From Dietzia cinnamea NBRC 102147 (GTDB lineage: Bacteria > Actinomycetota > Actinomycetes > Mycobacteriales > Mycobacteriaceae), in contig NZ_BCSW01000018.1 in assembly GCF_001571065.1 (NCBI RefSeq), positions 1 through 58,229 on the forward strand: 58,229 nt of DNA, given 5' to 3'. Below, piece by piece: positions 32,631 through 41,065 of this stretch. The notes under the pieces were generated by a model. That model searched no databases, was not told the DNA's origin, and saw only the letters and a program-made list of their open reading frames with translations. Position 1 is the first letter of the stretch; every line of letters starts with the position of its first letter. The position numbers and the translations under genes were made by a program.

Positions 32631-33395
32631 TTACACACCGTCGCGCCCGCCCACAGCAGCCGATCGAGCCCGGCGGAGGGGAACCGCGCGGACGATGTTC
32701 AGTGCCTGCCACAGGTAGATGCCACCGCTCCAGACGTACAGACCGACACCCCAGTAGAGGCATGCCTCGCCGATGATCTGGAACCCCTCGCCGCCGGGCG
32801 CGTCCGCGTAGCCGGCCAGCAGCAAGGGGAACGACCAGAACAGCGCGAACGTCGCCGCCTTGCCGAGGTACGTGACCTCCGGGTCGAGGCCGCGCCGGCG
32901 GTAGACCGGCAGGGTGGTCACCAGCAGCAGGTCGCGGGCGACGAGCACGACGACGATCCACGCGGGGATGAAACCCGCCAGCGCGAACGTGACCGGAACC
33001 GCCGCCACGAGGATCCGGTCGGCGATGGGGTCGAGCCGCTCCCCCCACGTCGAGCGCATGTTCCACAGTCGCGCGATCTTGCCGTCCAGCCAGTCCGAGA
33101 CGACCAGGACGCCGAGGAGCCACAGCGCCAGCATCGCGTCGTCCCACACGAGGATGCTGACGATCAGCACGGGGATGAGGGCGATCCGACCCAGCGAGAT
33201 CGCGTTGGGCAGGGTCCAGAAGCGGTCGCTGACCCGCGGGTCGCGCGATGGGCTCTCGGGCCCCAGGCCGGGCGGGACCGCCGCGGACAGATGCCCGCCC
33301 CGCGGTGGCGGGATGCGGGCGCCCAGAACCCGAGCCTCGCCGGTTCGCCACTCCCTCAGGTCGGTCTCGCGCCCTCCCTCGCGTGCCGCACTCAT
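32631..33395 (-). CDS. CDP-alcohol phosphatidyltransferase (PgsA-like)
   Basis: Integral membrane phospholipid synthase of 254 residues. The full family signature D-G-x2-A-R-x8-G-x3-D-x3-D is present as Asp104-Gly105, Ala108-Arg109, Gly118, Asp122 and Asp126. About six hydrophobic helices follow (residues ~62-100, 128-165 and 185-235). The N-terminal ~57 residues are Arg/Pro-rich, unlike the short N-terminus of PgsA2 (Rv1822), but no later start codon fits. Its ATG overlaps the secA2 stop (ATGA). Confidence 0.87.
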
Positions 33396-35689
33396 CGGAA
33401 CGTCGACATCATCCCGGAGAAGACGCTACCGCCGGCAGCCATCGGGTTGTCGTGCACCATGTACGTCCAGGTCGACGTGGGGCGCGCCATGGAATTGGCC
33501 TCCAGATCGACTCCGTCGGCAGTGAACTCGATCTCCGCGAACGTGGCCTCCGACTCGCGGACCGCGTCTGCCGCGAGATCGCGGAAGTGGTCGATCGCGA
33601 TGCGGTGGAATTCGTCGAGGGGGTTCTCCCGGCCGAGGGCGCGGAGGTGGATCGACTCGCGGACGTCGGTCATCGTCTCCAGGTGACGAGCCCAGCCACG
33701 GTCGAGGTGCCACAGCATGATCTCGCGGCACCCCCGGACCACCGCGTCGCGTCCGTGTGCCTCCACCAGCCGCGCACTCCGCTCGGGATCATGCGCGGTG
33801 AGCTCCTCGAACGCCTTCTCCGTGCGGAGCAGAGCGCTCCTGCGCTCGGCGAGGATCTCGCGCTGCTCGGCGAGGAGCCGACTGTACCGCCAGGTGTTGG
33901 CGTGGATCTCCAGCATCTGCCCCTCGGTGACCCGCTGCGCGTGGTCGACGGCGTCCCGCCCCCGATTGCCCTTGAGCAGCCCGGTGATCCTGTCGTGGGC
34001 GGTGGGGATCTTCTCCGGCTCGAGCGCCGACGTCACCACCGGATCGTCCATCGCTGCGAAGAAGACAGAACTGCCCGGATCGCCCTGACGCCCGGCCCGG
34101 CCCCGCAGTTGGTTGTCCAGCCGCTCGGTGCGGTGCCGGCCCGTGCCCACGACGTGGAGTCCGCCGAGCGCGACGACCTCGTCGCGCCGGGCCTCGTCGG
34201 ATCCGCCGAGCCGGATGTCCGTCCCGCGGCCGGCCATCTGCGTGGAGACGGTGACGTGCCCGACGTCGCCGGCCTCCGCGATGATGGACGCCTCCTCCTC
34301 GTCGTTCTTGGCGTTGAGAACCGAGCACCGGACGCCCTTTTCCGCGAGCCGGGCTGCCAACGCCTCGGACTCGGCCACGTCGTGGGTGCCGACCAGCACC
34401 GGCTGCCCGGTGGCGTGGACGGCGGCGATGTGCTCGACCAGCGCGCGGTTCTTGCTGTCGTTGTCGATGTAGGTGCGGTCGGCTTCGTCGACACGGATGT
34501 TGGGCGTGTTCGGCTCGATCTGGGACACCCCGAGGGAGTAGAACTCGCGCAGCTGCGCACCTGCGGCCAGCGCGGTGCCGGTCATGCCGCACACCTTGTC
34601 ATATCGGCCGATGAACGCCTGGACCGTGAGGCTGTCGAGGATCTGTCCCGCCTCGGAGACCGCGACGCCCTCCTTGGCCTCCACCGCGGCCTGGAGCCCG
34701 TCCGGCCATCGCTGGAGTTCGGCCACGCGTCCACGGGAGGCGTTGACGAGCTGGACCCGGCCCTCGCGGACGATGTAGTCGACGTCCCTGCGCAACAGGA
34801 AGCACGCGTGCAGGGCGACGTTGACCTGGACCAGGGTCGTGCCGACGTGGTCGGCGTCGTAGAGGTCCTCGATCCCGAGTTCGGTTTCGATGGCCTCCGC
34901 CCCGTCGTCGGTGAGGAAGATGTTGCGACGCTCTGAATCCGTCTCGTAGTGGCGGCCGGGTCGTAGCTTCCGCACCGCCGCCAGGACCTCCCCCGTCGGC
35001 GCCTCACCGGACGTGGATCCCGCGAGCACCAGGGGAACCAACGCCTCGTCGACCAGGACGGAGTCCGCCTCGTCCACGAGGGCGACGTCGGTGGTCGGCG
35101 AGATGAGGTCGGCGGGATCGGTCACGAGTTGCTCGCGCAGGACGTCGAACCCGATCTCGGACACCGAACCGTAGGTGATGTCGCAGGCGTAGGCCGCGCG
35201 GCGCTCGTCACGCGTCGACGACTCCGTGACGTGGCCGACCGACAGGCCCAGCAGCTCGAGCATCGGTCCCATCCACCGGGCGTCGCGGGCCGCGAGGTAG
35301 TCGTTGACCGAGATGACGTGGACGGTGTGTCCCTGCAGTGCGTACCCGGCCGCCGCCACGGCGCCGGACAGCGTCTTGCCCTCGCCCGTGGCCATCTCCA
35401 CGACGTCGCCGGCGAACATCCGGAGAGCGCCCTGGAGCTGTACGTCGAACGGGCGTAGGCCGACGGCCCGGCCGGCCGCCTCCCTCGCCAGGGCGAGGAA
35501 CCGCGCGAGATCCTCCGGCGCATCACCGAAGAGGCGCAGGCCGTGGGCGGCGTCCGCGAACTCGCCGTCGTCGAGTCCCGCCGCCCAGTCGTCCAACCCG
35601 TGCGAGGCCTCGACCGCGCTCTGGGCGCGCGACGTGTCGCGTCCCTGGGTGGAGCCCATCAGCTTCCAGAAGCGGTTGGCCAGTCCCAC
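33392..35689 (-). CDS. secA2: Accessory preprotein translocase ATPase SecA2
   Basis: Export motor for a subset of proteins, 765 residues, shorter than SecA1. Walker A is [11 protein letters not shown] (99-109) and Walker [15 protein letters not shown]. The DEAD-like second nucleotide-binding fold has [10 protein letters not shown] and [13 protein letters not shown]. The C-terminal zinc-binding tail of SecA1 is absent, as expected. Start ATG/GTG at 35689 gives [13 protein letters not shown]. It is followed, overlapping, by the phosphatidyltransferase gene, as in mycobacteria (Rv1821-Rv1822). Confidence 0.93.
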
Positions 35690-35776: not shown

Positions 35777-36916
35777 TCAGCGATCGGGGTCGATCTGCCC
35801 CCGTAGTCGGCGCATGGCCTCGGTCGAGAGCATCCGGTCCCCCGCGCGCGCCGCGAGGTGCTCGGCCGCGAGGTCGGCGGGCGTCGGGCGGTGGGCTGCG
35901 GTCGGGGGCCGGACGCCGTTGTCGCGGGCGATTCCGGCGAGCCTCTCCGCCTCGGCCACCGCGGTCTCGGCGCGGGTCTCCACCGACTCGACGAGCTCAC
36001 GGAACGCGACCGCGCGATCGACCACCTCGGCCCACACTCCGTCGATGGAGGCGCCGAGTCCGGTCAGCGTGGTGAAGCCGTCGCGAGCCGGAGGCACACC
36101 CGCCGAGGCGGAGGCCTCGCGCAGTCGGCACAGATCACCCGCGAGTCCCACGACCTCGGTCTCGGCGTCGAACTGCAGGCGGATCTCCTCCACCGCGCGT
36201 CCGCCCCGGCCGTACGCCCGTTGTAGCCGGTCGTAGAGCCCGCCCACCTCCATCAACATCGCGGTGTACATCTCCGGGATCCGGCGACGGTCCGCGCGGA
36301 TCCGTGGCAGCGACGGTAGCGACGCGACTGCGTTCTGCACGCGCTGCGGCAGCACCACCCGGCCCATCTCGCGCTGGCCGTAGGCCGCGGCGACCGTGCC
36401 CAGTTCGCCGAGCGTTCGGGGCACCAGGGGCACCGGCGCCATGGTCGGCGTCGAGGCCAGCGCGTCGAAGAGCCGCCCGCGGTCATCGGTGTCCAGATGC
36501 ACGCCGCGGCGGCGGTCGGCGCGGATGTCCTTGACCCGGAACGCCCACACCCCGGTCCCCCGGGTGAAGCCCGTGCGCATCACCAGGTATCTGCGGTCGA
36601 GGTCGGCCAGGCGGGTGCGGAGGGCCATCCGCAGCATCGACGGCGCGGGGCTGTCGATCGTCCTCCTCAGATCGTGCCGTTGCTCCTCGATGATGCGCAC
36701 CTGGTGGAAACCACCGACCGTGGGGAACGGGAGGTTGCGGTGGAGCCGGGCCAGCACCACATCGCAGATCCGCGGTTCGACGAGGCCGCAGGCGACGAGC
36801 AACGCCGACCGGTCGGACAGCTCGGCGACCGGTGGTCGGCCCTCGCCCCGGCACATGAGGTCGACATCGGACACGATCCGGTCCCGTGCGGTCCGTGGCC
36901 CGCGCTCATCCGCCAT
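35777..36916 (-). CDS. Hypothetical protein upstream of secA2, unrecognised
   Basis: A 379-residue soluble, strongly helical, Arg-rich protein. The C-terminal half looks like coiled coil (RAVAFRELVESVETRAETAV-AEAERL) and ends with a basic segment. No enzymatic motif or signal peptide is visible. ATG 36916 follows GAGGAGGGGCAC. An 87-base gap separates it from secA2, so cotranscription is plausible. Its place beside SecA2 makes an export-related role conceivable, but that is inference. Confidence 0.7.
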   Translation of the reverse strand: MADERGPRTARDRIVSDVDLMCRGEGRPPVAELSDRSALLVACGLVEPRICDVVLARLHRNLPFPTVGGFHQVRIIEEQRHDLRRTIDSPAPSMLRMALRTRLADLDRRYLVMRTGFTRGTGVWAFRVKDIRADRRRGVHLDTDDRGRLFDALASTPTMAPVPLVPRTLGELGTVAAAYGQREMGRVVLPQRVQNAVASLPSLPRIRADRRRIPEMYTAMLMEVGGLYDRLQRAYGRGGRAVEEIRLQFDAETEVVGLAGDLCRLREASASAGVPPARDGFTTLTGLGASIDGVWAEVVDRAVAFRELVESVETRAETAVAEAERLAGIARDNGVRPPTAAHRPTPADLAAEHLAARAGDRMLSTEAMRRLRGQIDPDR

Positions 36917-36974
36917 GTGCCCCTCCTCGCCCGTGTCCACTCTGTCGGCCCGCCTTCATCGGGGTACAACGGTC

Positions 36975-37060
36975 GGGCCGCGCCCCGTGTTCCCCCGCGG
37001 GCCACGCCCCGTGTTCCCCCGCGGGCCGCGCACCGTGTTCCCCCGCGGGCCGCGCACCGG
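36975..37060. repeat. 24-bp tandem repeat, about 3.6 copies
   Basis: A 24-bp unit runs three times from 36975 to 37046, with a partial fourth copy to 37060 that ends before the spermidine-synthase-like gene's stop. Copies differ at two positions. Each unit contains CGTGTTCCCCCGC and can pair with neighbours through GGGCC and GCCCG-like segments. It lies between the stop of the spermidine-synthase-like gene and the start of the gene at 36916, so it is both the 3' UTR of one and the upstream region of the other. Confidence 0.85.
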
Positions 37061-37071
37061 CGCCGCGTCGG

Positions 37072-38703
37072 TCACCGTTCATAGCCCAGCCGGGCGTCGT
37101 CGAGGATCCGTGGCCGGTCGAGTGTGGAGGGCTCGAGCCGCATCGGCGCCACGTCGCGCCCGAAGCGGCCGGCGGCCTCGAGGGTTCCGGGGTCGAGGAA
37201 CCTCAGTCCACCGACGTCGGGGCGTAGCCGGAGATCCGGGGCGTCACCGTCGGCCGAGGCCAGGACGAAGCCCCAGTCCCCGAACGTCGGGACATGGACG
37301 TGATACGGGGTCGTCCCCCACCCGGCCGAGCCCACCGTGGCCACCGTCCTCCAGAACTGCCGCGGCGTGGAGAACGGGCTCCCCGACTGGACGACCATCA
37401 GACCGTTCTCGCCGGTCACCCCGCGTACGAGGCCGTAGAACTCCTCGGAGTACAGGCGGGACAGGGCGGCGTTGCGCGGGTCGGGCAGATCCACGAGCAC
37501 CGCCCCGAAACCGCCCGGCGGCACCGCCCTGTCGCCGCCCCGGCGCAGCCACGCGAAGGCGTCGTCCACCACGACCTCCACCCGCGGGTCGTCGAGAGAC
37601 CCCCGGTTGTCCGGGAGCAGTTCGGTGCGGGCGATATCCAGAACGGCCGGGTCGAGCTCCACCTGGACCACCCGCCGGACCCCGGGCACGGCCAGGAGGT
37701 CCCGGGCCGCCAGACCGTCGCCGCCCCCGAGCACCAGGACGTCGCCGGGCCGGTTCGCCACGGCGGGCTGGACCAACGCCTCGGTGTACCGGTACTCGTC
37801 GAGGCTCGAGTACTGGAGGGTGCCGTCGAGGTACAGTCGGCGGTCGGTACGCCCGTTGTAACGCGCCCTGGTGACGACGATCTCCTGGTACGCGGACTGG
37901 GTGTGGGAGAGCACCGGGTCCGGGTAGAGCTTGGCCCTCGACCACTCGGTGACGCCGTCGAGAGCGACGACCAGCGTGCCCAGCAGGGCCGCGACCAGTG
38001 TCAGCGACAGCGCCGCGACGACGGTCTGCGCCCGGGACAGCAGGCCCCGTAACGCGAGCGTGAGCAACACCGCCGCGGCGGCGACGTTGACCAACCCCGT
38101 GATGGCGGCGGCCTGCTGCATCCCTAACGACGGCACGAGCAGGAACGGCCACAGCAGTCCCCCGACGAGCGCGCCCAGGTAGTCGGCGGCGTTGAGATCG
38201 GCCAGCACCCGACCGGCTTCGGCCGACCCGGTCCGCCGACCGGTCTGCAGCAGGGACATGAGCAGCGGGACCTCTGCGCCCACCAGCATCCCGATCGCGG
38301 CGGTGGCCACCACGAGCGTGACCATAGATGCCGCGTCCGACCCGAGGGTCGTGAACGTCACGTAGAGGGCTGTCGCCGATACTCCTCCGACGAGCCCCAG
38401 CGTCGCCTCGACGCCGATGAAACTCGACGCCGGGCGGTCGACGAACGGCTTGGCCAGCAGCGCGCCGAGACCGAGGGCCGCGACGTACCCGGCCACCACG
38501 AGACTCGTGGCGACGATCCCGCCGCCCTGGACGGTGGTCGCGAGCGTGAGGAGAGCGAGTTCGTAGATCAGCCCGCAGGCGGCGCACGCGGCGACGGAGG
38601 CCAGGACGATCGGGCGCCACCAGCGGCCCGCACGCGGCGCGGGACGTCCGGCGGGCTCGGCCCCGGTCCGCACGGGGTCCGCCGTGCGGACCTCGTCAGG
38701 CAA
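37072..38703 (-). CDS. Membrane-bound spermidine-synthase-like (polyamine aminopropyltransferase-like) protein
   Basis: A 543-residue protein with about seven hydrophobic helices in residues ~28-255, fused to a C-terminal SpeE-like Rossmann domain. That domain has the SAM/dcSAM loop LVLGGGDGLAARDLL, VELDPAVLDIA, and VLVDLPDPRNAALSRLYS in place of the usual DSTDPxGP catalytic loop. It resembles Rv2601. Whether it makes polyamines is unproven; the altered loop argues for care. The TTG start overlaps the DUF350 gene by 8 bp; GTG 38673 is an alternative. It is the last gene of the five-gene operon. Confidence 0.83.
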   Translation of the reverse strand: MPDEVRTADPVRTGAEPAGRPAPRAGRWWRPIVLASVAACAACGLIYELALLTLATTVQGGGIVATSLVVAGYVAALGLGALLAKPFVDRPASSFIGVEATLGLVGGVSATALYVTFTTLGSDAASMVTLVVATAAIGMLVGAEVPLLMSLLQTGRRTGSAEAGRVLADLNAADYLGALVGGLLWPFLLVPSLGMQQAAAITGLVNVAAAAVLLTLALRGLLSRAQTVVAALSLTLVAALLGTLVVALDGVTEWSRAKLYPDPVLSHTQSAYQEIVVTRARYNGRTDRRLYLDGTLQYSSLDEYRYTEALVQPAVANRPGDVLVLGGGDGLAARDLLAVPGVRRVVQVELDPAVLDIARTELLPDNRGSLDDPRVEVVVDDAFAWLRRGGDRAVPPGGFGAVLVDLPDPRNAALSRLYSEEFYGLVRGVTGENGLMVVQSGSPFSTPRQFWRTVATVGSAGWGTTPYHVHVPTFGDWGFVLASADGDAPDLRLRPDVGGLRFLDPGTLEAAGRFGRDVAPMRLEPSTLDRPRILDDARLGYER

Positions 38704-39148
38704 TGGCGGCCGCGTTGACGGCGGCGACGGCGAGCAGCGTGGCGGCGACGGCGAGCACGGTGGTGCTGAACCGTGGGGCGCTGACGAGGTCGCGGAATCG
38801 ACCGGGGACCAGCAGTTCCAGGATCACCAGCGTGACGGCCTGGAAGATCACCCCGAGCAGGCCGTAGACGGCGACGTCGATCAGCCCCAGCACGAGAGAG
38901 TCCGACGCGTTCGTCATCACCGTGACGACGATGATCGCGAGGGAGATCGCCGAGGCCGCGAACAGCGCGGCCGCGTTGGGACGGTGGTCGACGAACACGT
39001 GGTGTCGCAGGCTTCCGGGCGTGAGCAGATCGAGCATGACGAACCCGAGCGTGAGGACCAGGGCGCCGACGCCGAAGTAGGCCAGCGACACCCCGATCCC
39101 GTCCAACAGTTCGGGTACGTGGTCGGCGGGTCCGGCGGCGAATGTCAC
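38696..39148 (-). CDS. DUF350 (YjfL-like) membrane protein
   Basis: A 150-residue four-helix membrane protein of the DUF350/YjfL family: helices at ~16-38, 56-78, 84-106 and 128-148, with LVLELLVPGRF-like polar ends. GTG 39148 follows GAGGAG by six bases. Its stop overlaps the start of the spermidine-synthase-like gene. The mycobacterial equivalent is Rv2600, in the same order. The function is unknown. Confidence 0.83.
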   Translation of the reverse strand: MTFAAGPADHVPELLDGIGVSLAYFGVGALVLTLGFVMLDLLTPGSLRHHVFVDHRPNAAALFAASAISLAIIVVTVMTNASDSLVLGLIDVAVYGLLGVIFQAVTLVILELLVPGRFRDLVSAPRFSTTVLAVAATLLAVAAVNAAAIA

Positions 39149-39191
39149 CGTGTCTCCTCGGGTTTCGGGTAGTGAGAGGGCGTCTCGCGGG

Positions 39192-39611
39192 TCACTTCGC
39201 GCCGACCCCGCCGGAGCTTCCTCCGGCGGACCGGGCGGGGCTGCCGGGTCCGAAGGCTCCACCGAGGAAGATGAATCCCCCGGAGCGGAGCGTGCGGGAG
39301 TTCTCATCGAGCTGGACGCGACACGGGAGATCGCCGGACCGGCCGACGACGATCATGTCGTCCCCGTACCTCAGGTACCGGGTGTCCTCGTTCAGCTGGT
39401 CGGCGTCCGGCCGCTCGTGGTCGCGGATGTCCCTCGCCGTGGCGTCGCGGTCGCCCCGACACTCGTAGGTCTGGGAGGCGCCCGCCACCGGGGAGTAGTT
39501 CTCCCGGACGTAGTGCACCGCGTTCTGACCGGTCCCCACGAGGACGAGTCCCAGCAGGACCGCGCACAGTCCGGCGGCCAGCGCGATGATCCAGCCGCGG
39601 TACGCCTTCAC
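39192..39611 (-). CDS. DUF4247 family membrane-anchored protein
   Basis: A 139-residue protein with one N-terminal membrane helix (WIIALAAGLCAVLLGLVLVG), then an extracytoplasmic-looking domain with CRGDRDATARDIRDHERPDA and YLRYGDDMIVVG, typical of DUF4247 (Rv2599-like). It ends with a Gly/Ser-rich tail (GGSSGGVGAK). The GTG start at 39611 shares one base with the DUF2617 stop (TAGTG). The role is unknown. Confidence 0.82.
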   Translation of the reverse strand: MKAYRGWIIALAAGLCAVLLGLVLVGTGQNAVHYVRENYSPVAGASQTYECRGDRDATARDIRDHERPDADQLNEDTRYLRYGDDMIVVGRSGDLPCRVQLDENSRTLRSGGFIFLGGAFGPGSPARSAGGSSGGVGAK

Positions 39612-40183
39612 TAAGCCACCTCCGCCGGCGCGCCGAGCCCGGCGACCCGGAGTCGGGACGAGGTGGCGACGACGTCGCCACCTCCGCGCCCGGCGGGGTC
39701 GTCCGCCGGGTAGAGATGCCAGGTGTCCCACGACCAGCCCGCGTCGTCGGGAGTCGGGGCCACCACCGTGAGCGCCCCCTCTGCACCGGGGAACCGTCCC
39801 GCGAGAACGGCGGGATCGGCCGCGGCGAGCGCGGTCAGACGATTTACCAGCTCCACGAAGGGACCAGCGGGCAGGGTCTCGGTGGCCCCGCGAAGGTGGT
39901 GGGCGCCCCACGGGCCGGGGCAGGACACCTCGGCCGGCAACGGTGCACCCCCGGCGGCCGTCGCCCGGCAGGACACCTCCTCGGTCATCGCGTCGCGACC
40001 GTCGATCACGAGCGTCACCGCGTGCGACGCACCGAGGATGGACAGGCGTAGAGCGATGTCGTGCGTCGGGTGCGCCAGAACGGTCGAGACGAGGGCGTCC
40101 CGCTCGGGTGTGACGCCGATCCGGTAGCCGAGTGCCGCGGCCGCCACGTCACTCGGCTCCGCGACGAGATCGTGCACGGTCAC
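39611..40183 (-). CDS. DUF2617 family protein
   Basis: A 190-residue soluble protein of the DUF2617 family (Rv2598-like), opening with DLVAEPSDVAAAALGYRIGV. Its sequence is rich in beta-strands with a WSWDTWHLYPADD motif near the C-terminus. No catalytic residues are evident. The GTG start lies within a GTGA overlap with the DUF4178 gene; the stop overlaps the DUF4247 start. Translational coupling on both sides points to a fixed stoichiometry. Confidence 0.82.
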   Translation of the reverse strand: MTVHDLVAEPSDVAAAALGYRIGVTPERDALVSTVLAHPTHDIALRLSILGASHAVTLVIDGRDAMTEEVSCRATAAGGAPLPAEVSCPGPWGAHHLRGATETLPAGPFVELVNRLTALAAADPAVLAGRFPGAEGALTVVAPTPDDAGWSWDTWHLYPADDPAGRGGGDVVATSSRLRVAGLGAPAEVA

Positions 40184-40806
40184 CGCCTGTAGTCCGGGTC
40201 GCCGGCCGCGGGCGGCGCCGGGTAGACCGTCAGCTCGCCCCGGGACACCGGGCGGCCGGATGAGACCTCCCAGCCGGCGCCGTCCCAGTTCTCGAACGAC
40301 AGCAGCGAGCTACCGTCCCCCGTGCGCATGTCCTGATACCGCATCCGTCCGCGCTCGGGCAGACCTGTGGTCCCCTCGCACGAGTACTCCGCCTCGCCCG
40401 ACTCCTCGAGACGGTGCACACGATCGTCGACGATCACCTCGGACCCGGGGCTGACGCCGAGGCCCTTGCGGGTGGTCCACCAGGTCAGCTCCAGGGTCCC
40501 CTCGTCCTCCTCCACACCGAGCCACTGCGCACCGTCCCCGCCCTCGAGCAGGTGCTCCCACCAGACGTACGGGCCCTGGCGCAGGGTGATCGATCCACGC
40601 ACCACGTAGTCGACACCGCCGTAGGCGACGATCGCACCGGGGCCGAGCTCACGCGGTCCGAATCCGTGAATCGGCTGGTCGGCGGCCAGCGGGTCGCGGC
40701 GGGGCGCGGCCGTGGCAGGCCTCGTCCCGCCCCGGGCCTTGACGATGATCCCGATGATCGCGACCACCGCGACCACCAACCCCACTATGACGAGTAGCTC
40801 TCCCAC
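40180..40806 (-). CDS. DUF4178 family membrane-anchored protein
   Basis: A 208-residue protein with one N-terminal membrane helix (LLVIVGLVVAVVAIIGIIV) and a cytosolic DUF4178 domain containing ELGPGAIVAYGGVDYVVRGSITL, WWEHLLEGGDGAQWLGVEEDEG and YWTTRKGLG-like strands, as in Rv2597. It is the first gene of the operon; GTG start. Upstream sequence carries a weak IdeR-like box and hairpins that may belong to the tRNA. The domain also occurs near membrane stress and polyamine-like genes in other bacteria, but its function is unknown. Confidence 0.82.
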   Translation of the reverse strand: MGELLVIVGLVVAVVAIIGIIVKARGGTRPATAAPRRDPLAADQPIHGFGPRELGPGAIVAYGGVDYVVRGSITLRQGPYVWWEHLLEGGDGAQWLGVEEDEGTLELTWWTTRKGLGVSPGSEVIVDDRVHRLEESGEAEYSCEGTTGLPERGRMRYQDMRTGDGSSLLSFENWDGAGWEVSSGRPVSRGELTVYPAPPAAGDPDYRR

Positions 40807-40974: not shown

Positions 40975-40991
40975 ATCTCGTCCACTCTGTG

Positions 40992-41065
<74 letters not shown>

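Follow-up and report, generated by a model that had tools for sequence, protein, structure and literature searches.

Operons in which a membrane-bound relative of spermidine synthase (SpeE) is encoded with DUF350 and DUF4178 proteins around a PspA-CesT pair were described by Ravi et al. in 2024, and passages of that paper (PMC11237479) also set out PspA-less polyamine variants in which DUF4247 and DUF2617 stand in place of the PspA-CesT pair, with DUF2617 predicted to be a beta-sandwich enzyme bearing two histidines, an aspartate and a glutamate. We analyzed an operon of this kind in Dietzia cinnamea NBRC 102147 (genome label G000, 3.6 Mb), located in a stretch of 58,229 nt (NZ_BCSW01000018.1, forward strand) that we call the window and by which all positions are numbered. 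The operon holds the full family set of the PspA-less variant, namely DUF4178, DUF350 and SpeE together with DUF4247 and DUF2617. The published example accessions CCP45394.1 (DUF2617) and CCP45395.1 (DUF4247) are presumably those of Mycobacterium tuberculosis. A preliminary description had presented the locus as an undescribed system; the five-gene arrangement is already in print, and its function is a prediction there (passages of PMC11237479).

The other close comparison is the pair of SpeD and SpeE. SpeE-type enzymes use decarboxylated S-adenosylmethionine (SAM, or AdoMet), the product of SpeD (passages of PMC10407285), and the window operon would share this logic of a decarboxylase serving an aminopropyltransferase. 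The catalytic residues of SpeE are kept, and the reduced Streptomyces loci are likewise two-gene pairs. The window operon differs from SpeD-SpeE in that its SpeE is fused to membrane helices, SpeD is absent, extra membrane partners are encoded, and DUF2617 matches no SpeD model. A further type of locus has DUF4178, DUF350 and membrane SpeE in common with the window, but carries SpeD and an oxidase and lacks DUF2617. It is represented by an Acidobacteriota locus (L177) with the order band-7, SpeD, DUF4178, DUF4178, DUF350, SpeE, amine oxidase, in which SpeD and the first DUF4178 gene share 4 bases, and by a similarly arranged Bacteroidota locus (L176) with in-operon SpeD and an unassigned protein adjoining it; band-7 was seen in L177. 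This type corresponds to a second variant of Ravi et al. (passages of PMC11237479).

Many actinobacteria encode a 'spermidine synthase' and no recognized enzyme to make its substrate. We propose, with a probability of about 0.55, that DUF2617 supplies decarboxylated SAM, standing in for SpeD, to a membrane aminopropyl-transfer system. As far as the literature was searched, this likely role and the mutual exclusivity of DUF2617 and SpeD are new; the passages of Ravi et al. (PMC11237479) do not note the exclusivity. No DUF2617-SpeD link appeared in the titles, abstract openings and passages searched, and Li et al. 2019 (Biochem J), cited in PMC11237479 for AdoMet-decarboxylase gene linkages, may bear on it. 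DUF2617 is mentioned in PMC11237479, PMC13118837 and PMC9505326, the relevant passages of the first two drawing no link to SpeD, and the only functional label in the passages found with the M. tuberculosis locus tags was 'speE (Rv2601)', in PMC11841054.

Mutual exclusion of DUF2617 and SpeD

Because the donor of SpeE is decarboxylated SAM made by SpeD, we counted SpeD across genomes, using PF02675 for the search and the NCBI model TIGR03330 (cut-off 75.65 bits) to call AdoMet decarboxylases. The samples overlap (the SpeE proteins of L053 and L080, for example, are identical), and their counts are not additive. Membrane-fused SpeE-like proteins under the NF002956 cut-off, such as those of G148 and G048, were excluded; G148 had neither SpeD nor DUF2617.

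The Dietzia genome itself gave no match to PF02675. In the family sample (81 genomes, the window's own included), SpeD was present in 10 and DUF2617 in 24, and never both in the same genome (hypergeometric p 0.023). Membrane SpeE over the cut-off occurred in eight of the 149 genomes of the phylum sample, seven of them with DUF2617 and the eighth (G050) with SpeD; one of the seven, G023, also carries a SpeD relative. The class sample of 325 genomes, in which membrane SpeE was taken as NF002956 at E <= 1e-100 and a split match in G357 was counted once, contained membrane SpeE in 79, DUF2617 in 77, both in 76, and PF02675 matches in 13. Nearly all DUF2617 copies in this sample (81/82) lay within 2 kb of membrane SpeE. 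The three genomes with membrane SpeE and no DUF2617 (G050, G194 and G341) all had SpeD, at 98.3, 98.1 and 81.6 bits against TIGR03330 and therefore over its cut-off, and SpeD over this cut-off was found in none of the 76 genomes having both DUF2617 and membrane SpeE.

A second sample came from a SpeE profile search with one genome per species, in which the best 80 of at least 585 relatives were retained as loci; 50 of these were chosen, and 49 genomes (all but that of L150) were searched. Among its actinobacterial genomes with membrane SpeE, SpeD was found in 8/8 without DUF2617 and in 0/38 with it. The eight belong to four Nocardia, two Saccharopolyspora, Actinopolyspora, and an Acidimicrobiales metagenome-assembled genome (MAG; L114) whose locus is cut by a contig end, the absence of DUF2617 resting here on the genome search; all eight SpeD proteins exceeded the TIGR03330 cut-off, at 92.2-115.3 bits. 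When the 49 genomes were searched throughout for DUF2617 together with eight SpeD-bearing genomes of the family sample, it was present in exactly 38 of the 57, each without a SpeD match. Three genomes of the second sample belong to other phyla: Sporocytophaga and a member of the Bryobacteraceae have in-operon SpeD, and the third, G234, has none. Among 14 named control genomes, 10 encode SpeE-like proteins, eight of these with SpeD, and DUF2617 was found in exactly the two SpeE-like genomes lacking SpeD, Corynebacterium glutamicum and Haloferax volcanii; only C. glutamicum passed the membrane-type cut-off of NF002956. For the role of AdoMet decarboxylase, and for that role only, DUF2617 is thus encoded with an aminopropyltransferase that is otherwise accompanied by SpeD. 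From this exclusivity we infer equal function, a step beyond the counts themselves.

PF02675 matches did occur in six of the 76 class-sample genomes with DUF2617 and membrane SpeE, and all six were inspected. Their scores against TIGR03330 were 60.9-74.5 bits, all below the cut-off. Four, of streptomycete type, have the motif S-A-S-H...A-Y-G and no active-site cysteine, a residue described as required for decarboxylation; the other two have E-S-H...V-S, in which the second histidine is absent. SpeD homologs without AdoMet-decarboxylase activity are documented (both points from passages of PMC10407285).

The Streptomyces-type loci L071, L162, L163 and L164 encode a SpeD-family protein with a common motif and without the active-site cysteine, and no SpeE was seen in the fetched flanks; this protein is possibly a neofunctionalized decarboxylase. 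In the SpeD-family proteins of L165 and L166, from class-sample genomes, the second histidine is replaced by serine.

Exchange of SpeD and DUF2617 at the locus

To follow both genes on a common background we used a tree of SpeE from 78 actinobacterial rows of known SpeD status, leaving out rows from unsearched genomes, loci of other phyla, and L067 (from G023, with its SpeD relative). The SpeD and DUF2617 labels each change four times on this tree (DUF2617 label: bootstrap 4-4), and the two move in opposite directions in 4/4 independent pairs. A close and well-supported pair consists of Nocardioides luteus L111, with DUF2617 and no SpeD, versus G341, with SpeD and no DUF2617. The phylogenetic pattern is consistent with exclusivity and not conclusive, since a sign test on four pairs cannot fall below p 0.125.

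The rest of the operon usually persists where DUF2617 is absent and SpeD present: DUF4178-DUF4247-DUF350-SpeE are retained in nine of 11 actinobacterial loci without DUF2617, the other two being L100, which also lacks DUF4178, and L114. In 6/11 of these genomes a soluble SpeE adjoins SpeD or is fused with it (1-1.5 kb were fetched on each side), so the ordinary spermidine pathway could feed membrane SpeE in roughly half of the genomes or more; in the other five (L018, L157, L158, L159 and L167), no SpeE was found within 1-1.5 kb on either side of SpeD. The DUF2617-SpeE loci of Streptomyces mirror the SpeD-SpeE pairs of other actinobacteria. Because SpeD replaces DUF2617 in genomes that lack it, and sits within the operons of L176 and L177, the two genes look interchangeable.

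Conserved residues of DUF2617 and comparison with SpeD

Ten residues are invariant in 93/93 DUF2617 sequences (G51, S53, H54, E68, T139, W152, H156, Y158, P159 and V172), and the identical ten were obtained from an alignment of 63 sequences; D12 is kept in 92/93. Residue numbering and roles in SpeD follow Ser55, His68 and Cys83 of the Thermotoga maritima enzyme. The serine of the SpeD motif E-S-H is the residue changed in the structure 1TMI. None of 24 DUF2617 members matched PF02675, neither the window protein nor that of L045 matched any NCBIfam model, and a search for solved structures resembling DUF2617 or DUF4178 returned only weak matches to unrelated proteins.

Comparison of profiles by hhalign gave DUF2617-SpeD probabilities of 2.3% (24 versus 16 sequences), 8.4% (93 versus 33), 20.7% (63 versus 16) and 8.1% (63 versus 33), with no consistent rise with depth. 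A weak profile alignment sets H156 of DUF2617 on the histidine of SpeD I-H-T-Y-P-E. None of 150 column shuffles reached the observed whole-length score of 25.9 against the 16-sequence SpeD profile, and the best of 20 other families from the same loci scored 16.3 (two that were DUF2617 itself having been excluded), these families being reading frames conserved among the loci, some of them probably shadow frames. The C-terminal half of DUF2617 reached 44.7% (E 0.0002, shuffles as high 0/150), in an alignment that sets T139 and H156 on a conserved T/S and H of SpeD. In the best alignment of the N-terminal half, S53-H54 falls on S-H and C72 on C of SpeD; this may be taken as a lead only, because 22/150 shuffles score as high. 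Remote homology between DUF2617 and SpeD is thus only hinted at by these profiles.

The eukaryotic class 2 AdoMet decarboxylase has been proposed to descend from a protein in which SpeD was fused to a degraded homolog of itself (passages of PMC10407285). DUF2617 could have a similar two-half layout, with the serine in the N-terminal half and the threonine and histidine in the C-terminal half. A tandem SpeD-SpeD profile gave no gain over the single-domain score, leaving the two-half model without statistical support in the N-terminal half. DUF2617 is, we assume, much shorter than the eukaryotic enzyme.

Proposed role and alternative explanations

In the scheme that we favor, DUF2617 would decarboxylate SAM, and the decarboxylated product would pass to the cytoplasmic domain of SpeE, which would move the aminopropyl group to a membrane-associated acceptor, be it a polyamine, the head group of a lipid or an amine on a protein; DUF4178, DUF350 and DUF4247, as the membrane and external components, may position the reaction or regulate it. 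Its product could be something other than spermidine. More speculatively, DUF2617 may be a compact pyruvoyl enzyme that uses the invariant Ser53. A fuller version of this idea, which we hold to be possible and rather doubtful, makes DUF2617 a second, diverged class of AdoMet decarboxylase, in which self-cleavage between Ala52 and Ser53 would generate the pyruvoyl group and a degenerate second half would contribute Thr139 and His156; it would then be the donor-making enzyme of actinobacteria with SpeE and without SpeD (many mycobacteria, corynebacteria and streptomycetes), and possibly of haloarchaea, serving a membrane aminopropyl-transfer device. If DUF2617 does supply the donor, a widespread family of unknown function would gain a testable one, and the polyamine-type metabolism of these bacteria would have to be redrawn. 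Its exclusivity with SpeD turns the vague guess of 'membrane stress' into a single complementation test.

Several observations weigh against a donor-supplying DUF2617. Pfam and NCBIfam draw no link between the family and AdoMet decarboxylases, and the profile match to SpeD is weak, depends on the set of sequences (2.3 to 20.7%), and involves the C-terminal half only; the N-terminal half, which holds Ser53, gave 0.4% with SpeD, and Cys72 is replaced in 7/93 sequences. The SpeE tree yields no more than four independent switches (p 0.125 by sign test, the minimum for four pairs), and shared ancestry therefore accounts for much of the raw counts. Two genomes do not fit the pattern: in the deltaproteobacterial MAG G234, whose retrieved sequence stops 1.8 kb from SpeE, membrane SpeE is accompanied by neither SpeD nor DUF2617, and G491 has DUF2617 without membrane SpeE over threshold. 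The six SpeD relatives of DUF2617 genomes pass Pfam's own cut-off, and three of them miss TIGR03330 by only 1.2-1.5 bits, the matched domain alone having been scored; the case that they are not AdoMet decarboxylases is thin and is read from sequence. The active-site cysteine is an unsafe marker of activity, because the in-operon SpeD of L160, which has no such cysteine, exceeds the TIGR03330 cut-off (83.9), and the cysteine-bearing in-operon SpeD of L161 falls short of it (68.2). Mycolicibacterium smegmatis reportedly has no detectable polyamines (passages of PMC8503589), which is relevant if the operon is present there.

The metal-binding residues predicted by Ravi et al. suggest a different role, in which DUF2617 is a metal-dependent enzyme or a partner in a membrane-stress device and its exclusion of SpeD an accident of ancestry. 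H54, E68 and H156 (93/93) together with D12 (92/93) form a plausible metal set, the prediction is already published (passages of PMC11237479), and the switches on the SpeE tree are few. We nevertheless consider this role unlikely, as it leaves unexplained both the two-gene DUF2617-SpeE loci and the presence of SpeD over the cut-off in all four actinobacterial lineages sampled without DUF2617, against its absence from every sampled genome with DUF2617.

The lack of SpeD could also mean that none is needed, with membrane SpeE using SAM itself to transfer a 3-amino-3-carboxypropyl group and DUF2617 decarboxylating or finishing the product. Transfer of this group from SAM occurs in betaine-lipid and nicotianamine synthesis, and a membrane-bound SpeE would suit a lipid acceptor. 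This accords with the lack of SpeD over the TIGR03330 cut-off in 76/76 DUF2617 genomes and of any PF02675 match in 38/38, but in the sampled actinobacterial lineages that lack DUF2617 the other genes are mostly retained, together with a SpeD that this chemistry would not need, and SpeE still has the residues of an aminopropyltransferase and can be aligned with solved enzymes of that kind, making such chemistry distinctly improbable. We give still less credence to the view that this is an ordinary spermidine-synthase operon, supplied with donor by an unrecognized decarboxylase encoded elsewhere in the genome, with DUF2617 as a chaperone or regulator. The donor-enzyme search covered PF02675 only, which leaves room for such an enzyme; it would have to be reconciled with the 81/82 DUF2617 copies that sit with SpeE, and with the 57 genomes, in which DUF2617 is absent with every SpeD match and present without one, the MAG G234 (neither) excepted.

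Operon structure, conservation and the membrane SpeE

The genes lie on the minus strand from 40806 to 37072 in the order DUF4178, DUF2617, DUF4247, DUF350 and membrane SpeE (Table 1). Overlaps of 4 bases (DUF4178/DUF2617), 1 base (DUF2617/DUF4247) and 8 bases (DUF350/SpeE) join them, and 43 bases between DUF4247 and DUF350 are the sole gap, bearing out the tight coupling reported in the preliminary description. Its helix counts agreed with hydropathy for DUF4178 (1), DUF2617 (0), DUF4247 (1) and DUF350 (4), and not for SpeE, where six helices were found at the threshold used versus the seven claimed. In one Pfam scan, DUF350 appeared as part of a longer open frame, 39307-38699; it is the only DUF350 match in the Dietzia genome.

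Table 1. Features of the operon and its upstream flank, in window positions
Feature	Position	Strand	Description
DUF4178 protein	40180..40806	-	208 aa; PF13785 6e-35; one N-terminal membrane helix, residues 4-22
DUF2617 protein	39611..40183	-	190 aa; PF10936 3.7e-35; no membrane helices; proposed supplier of decarboxylated SAM
DUF2617 Ser53-His54 codons (G-A-S-H)	40022..40027	-	candidate pyruvoyl-forming Ser; identical in 93/93
DUF2617 His156 codon (W-H-x-Y-P)	39716..39718	-	H156, Y158, P159 identical in 93/93
DUF4247 protein	39192..39611	-	139 aa; PF14042 3.9e-18; one N-terminal helix, 8-26; presumed extracytoplasmic domain
DUF350 protein	38696..39148	-	150 aa; PF03994 6e-19; four membrane helices; GTG start chosen by inspection
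Putative membrane polyamine aminopropyltransferase (SpeE-like)	37072..38703	-	543 aa; TTG start; PF01564 8e-26; NF002956
GGGDG nucleotide-binding motif, SpeE residues 326-330	37714..37728	-	invariant in 14/14 aligned
DLPDP catalytic loop, SpeE residues 405-409	37477..37491	-	both Asp kept; aligns to D-L-T-D-P
tRNA-Pro(ggg)	40991..41065	-	directly upstream, outside the operon

All 24 DUF2617 loci of the family sample, the window included, were inspected, and 23 had all five genes in the same order, L056 lacking DUF4178. Among the best 80 SpeE loci the complete set was present in 46, with the order kept in 46/46; DUF4178 only was missing from seven, DUF4247 only (by the profile used) from six and DUF2617 only from six, and another six, every one Streptomyces, were two-gene DUF2617-SpeE loci. 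Fewer genes were found in nine, among which are the four loci from outside the actinobacteria and some truncated at a contig end. The five-gene order is found across many actinobacterial families and, given its retention in 23/24 and 46/46 loci, is not due to chance. The proposal of a single co-inherited operon occurring beyond close relatives is upheld by these counts.

The window SpeE scores 573.8 bits over its whole length against the membrane-type model NF002956 (curated cut-off 472), and the aminopropyltransferase residues GGGDG, D-x-x-D-P and DE..Y.E are present, in agreement with the suggested connection to membrane-located polyamine-type chemistry. The DLPDP loop had been called altered; it differs from the DLTDP of solved aminopropyltransferases at a single position, and D[LMF]PDP is the family norm, seen in 97 of 107 membrane SpeE proteins (DLPGP in one, nine missed by the pattern). 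The loop is accordingly rejected as a sign of new chemistry, both aspartates being kept. Overall, the observations of the preliminary description are confirmed and its interpretation is partly supported. An anti-phage defense role was also dropped, the sole PADLOC result being SpeE against mads_2 at 45.9 bits.

Variant loci and neighboring features

Some Streptomyces-type genomes carry two DUF2617 copies (G128, with L065 and L066, and G255, G257, G260, G264 and G266); in G128 one copy lies in a DUF2617-DUF4247-DUF350-SpeE operon and the other in a DUF2617-SpeE pair. Six loci (L097, L110, L132, L117, L126 and L127) have an extra in-operon open frame, placed ahead of either DUF350 or SpeE; it has a hydrophobic stretch at the N terminus and an [IV]-C-[YF]-G-W motif, and none of these frames had a family match over cut-off. 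In Actinomadura madurae a minus-strand frame between DUF4247 and DUF350 (L103:4097-5206) looked transposase-associated by eye, no family search having been made. A DUF2617 match in G144 was dropped, as it scored 19.9 bits, under the cut-off, and none of the five families adjoined it. Searches for DUF2617 in plasmids, with the single sequence of L045 as query, and in viral contigs, with the profile, gave nothing useful. The SpeE gene of L063 is split over two reading frames; either the gene is disrupted or the sequence is in error.

Just 3' of the SpeE stop codon in the window is a 24-base tandem repeat of 3.6 copies (36974-37059). It is followed downstream of the operon by an open frame of 387 aa (35777-36940) with no match in Pfam or NCBIfam, and by a SecA-family gene (33392-35689, 765 aa) with Pfam SecA domains, which we take to be of the accessory SecA2 type.

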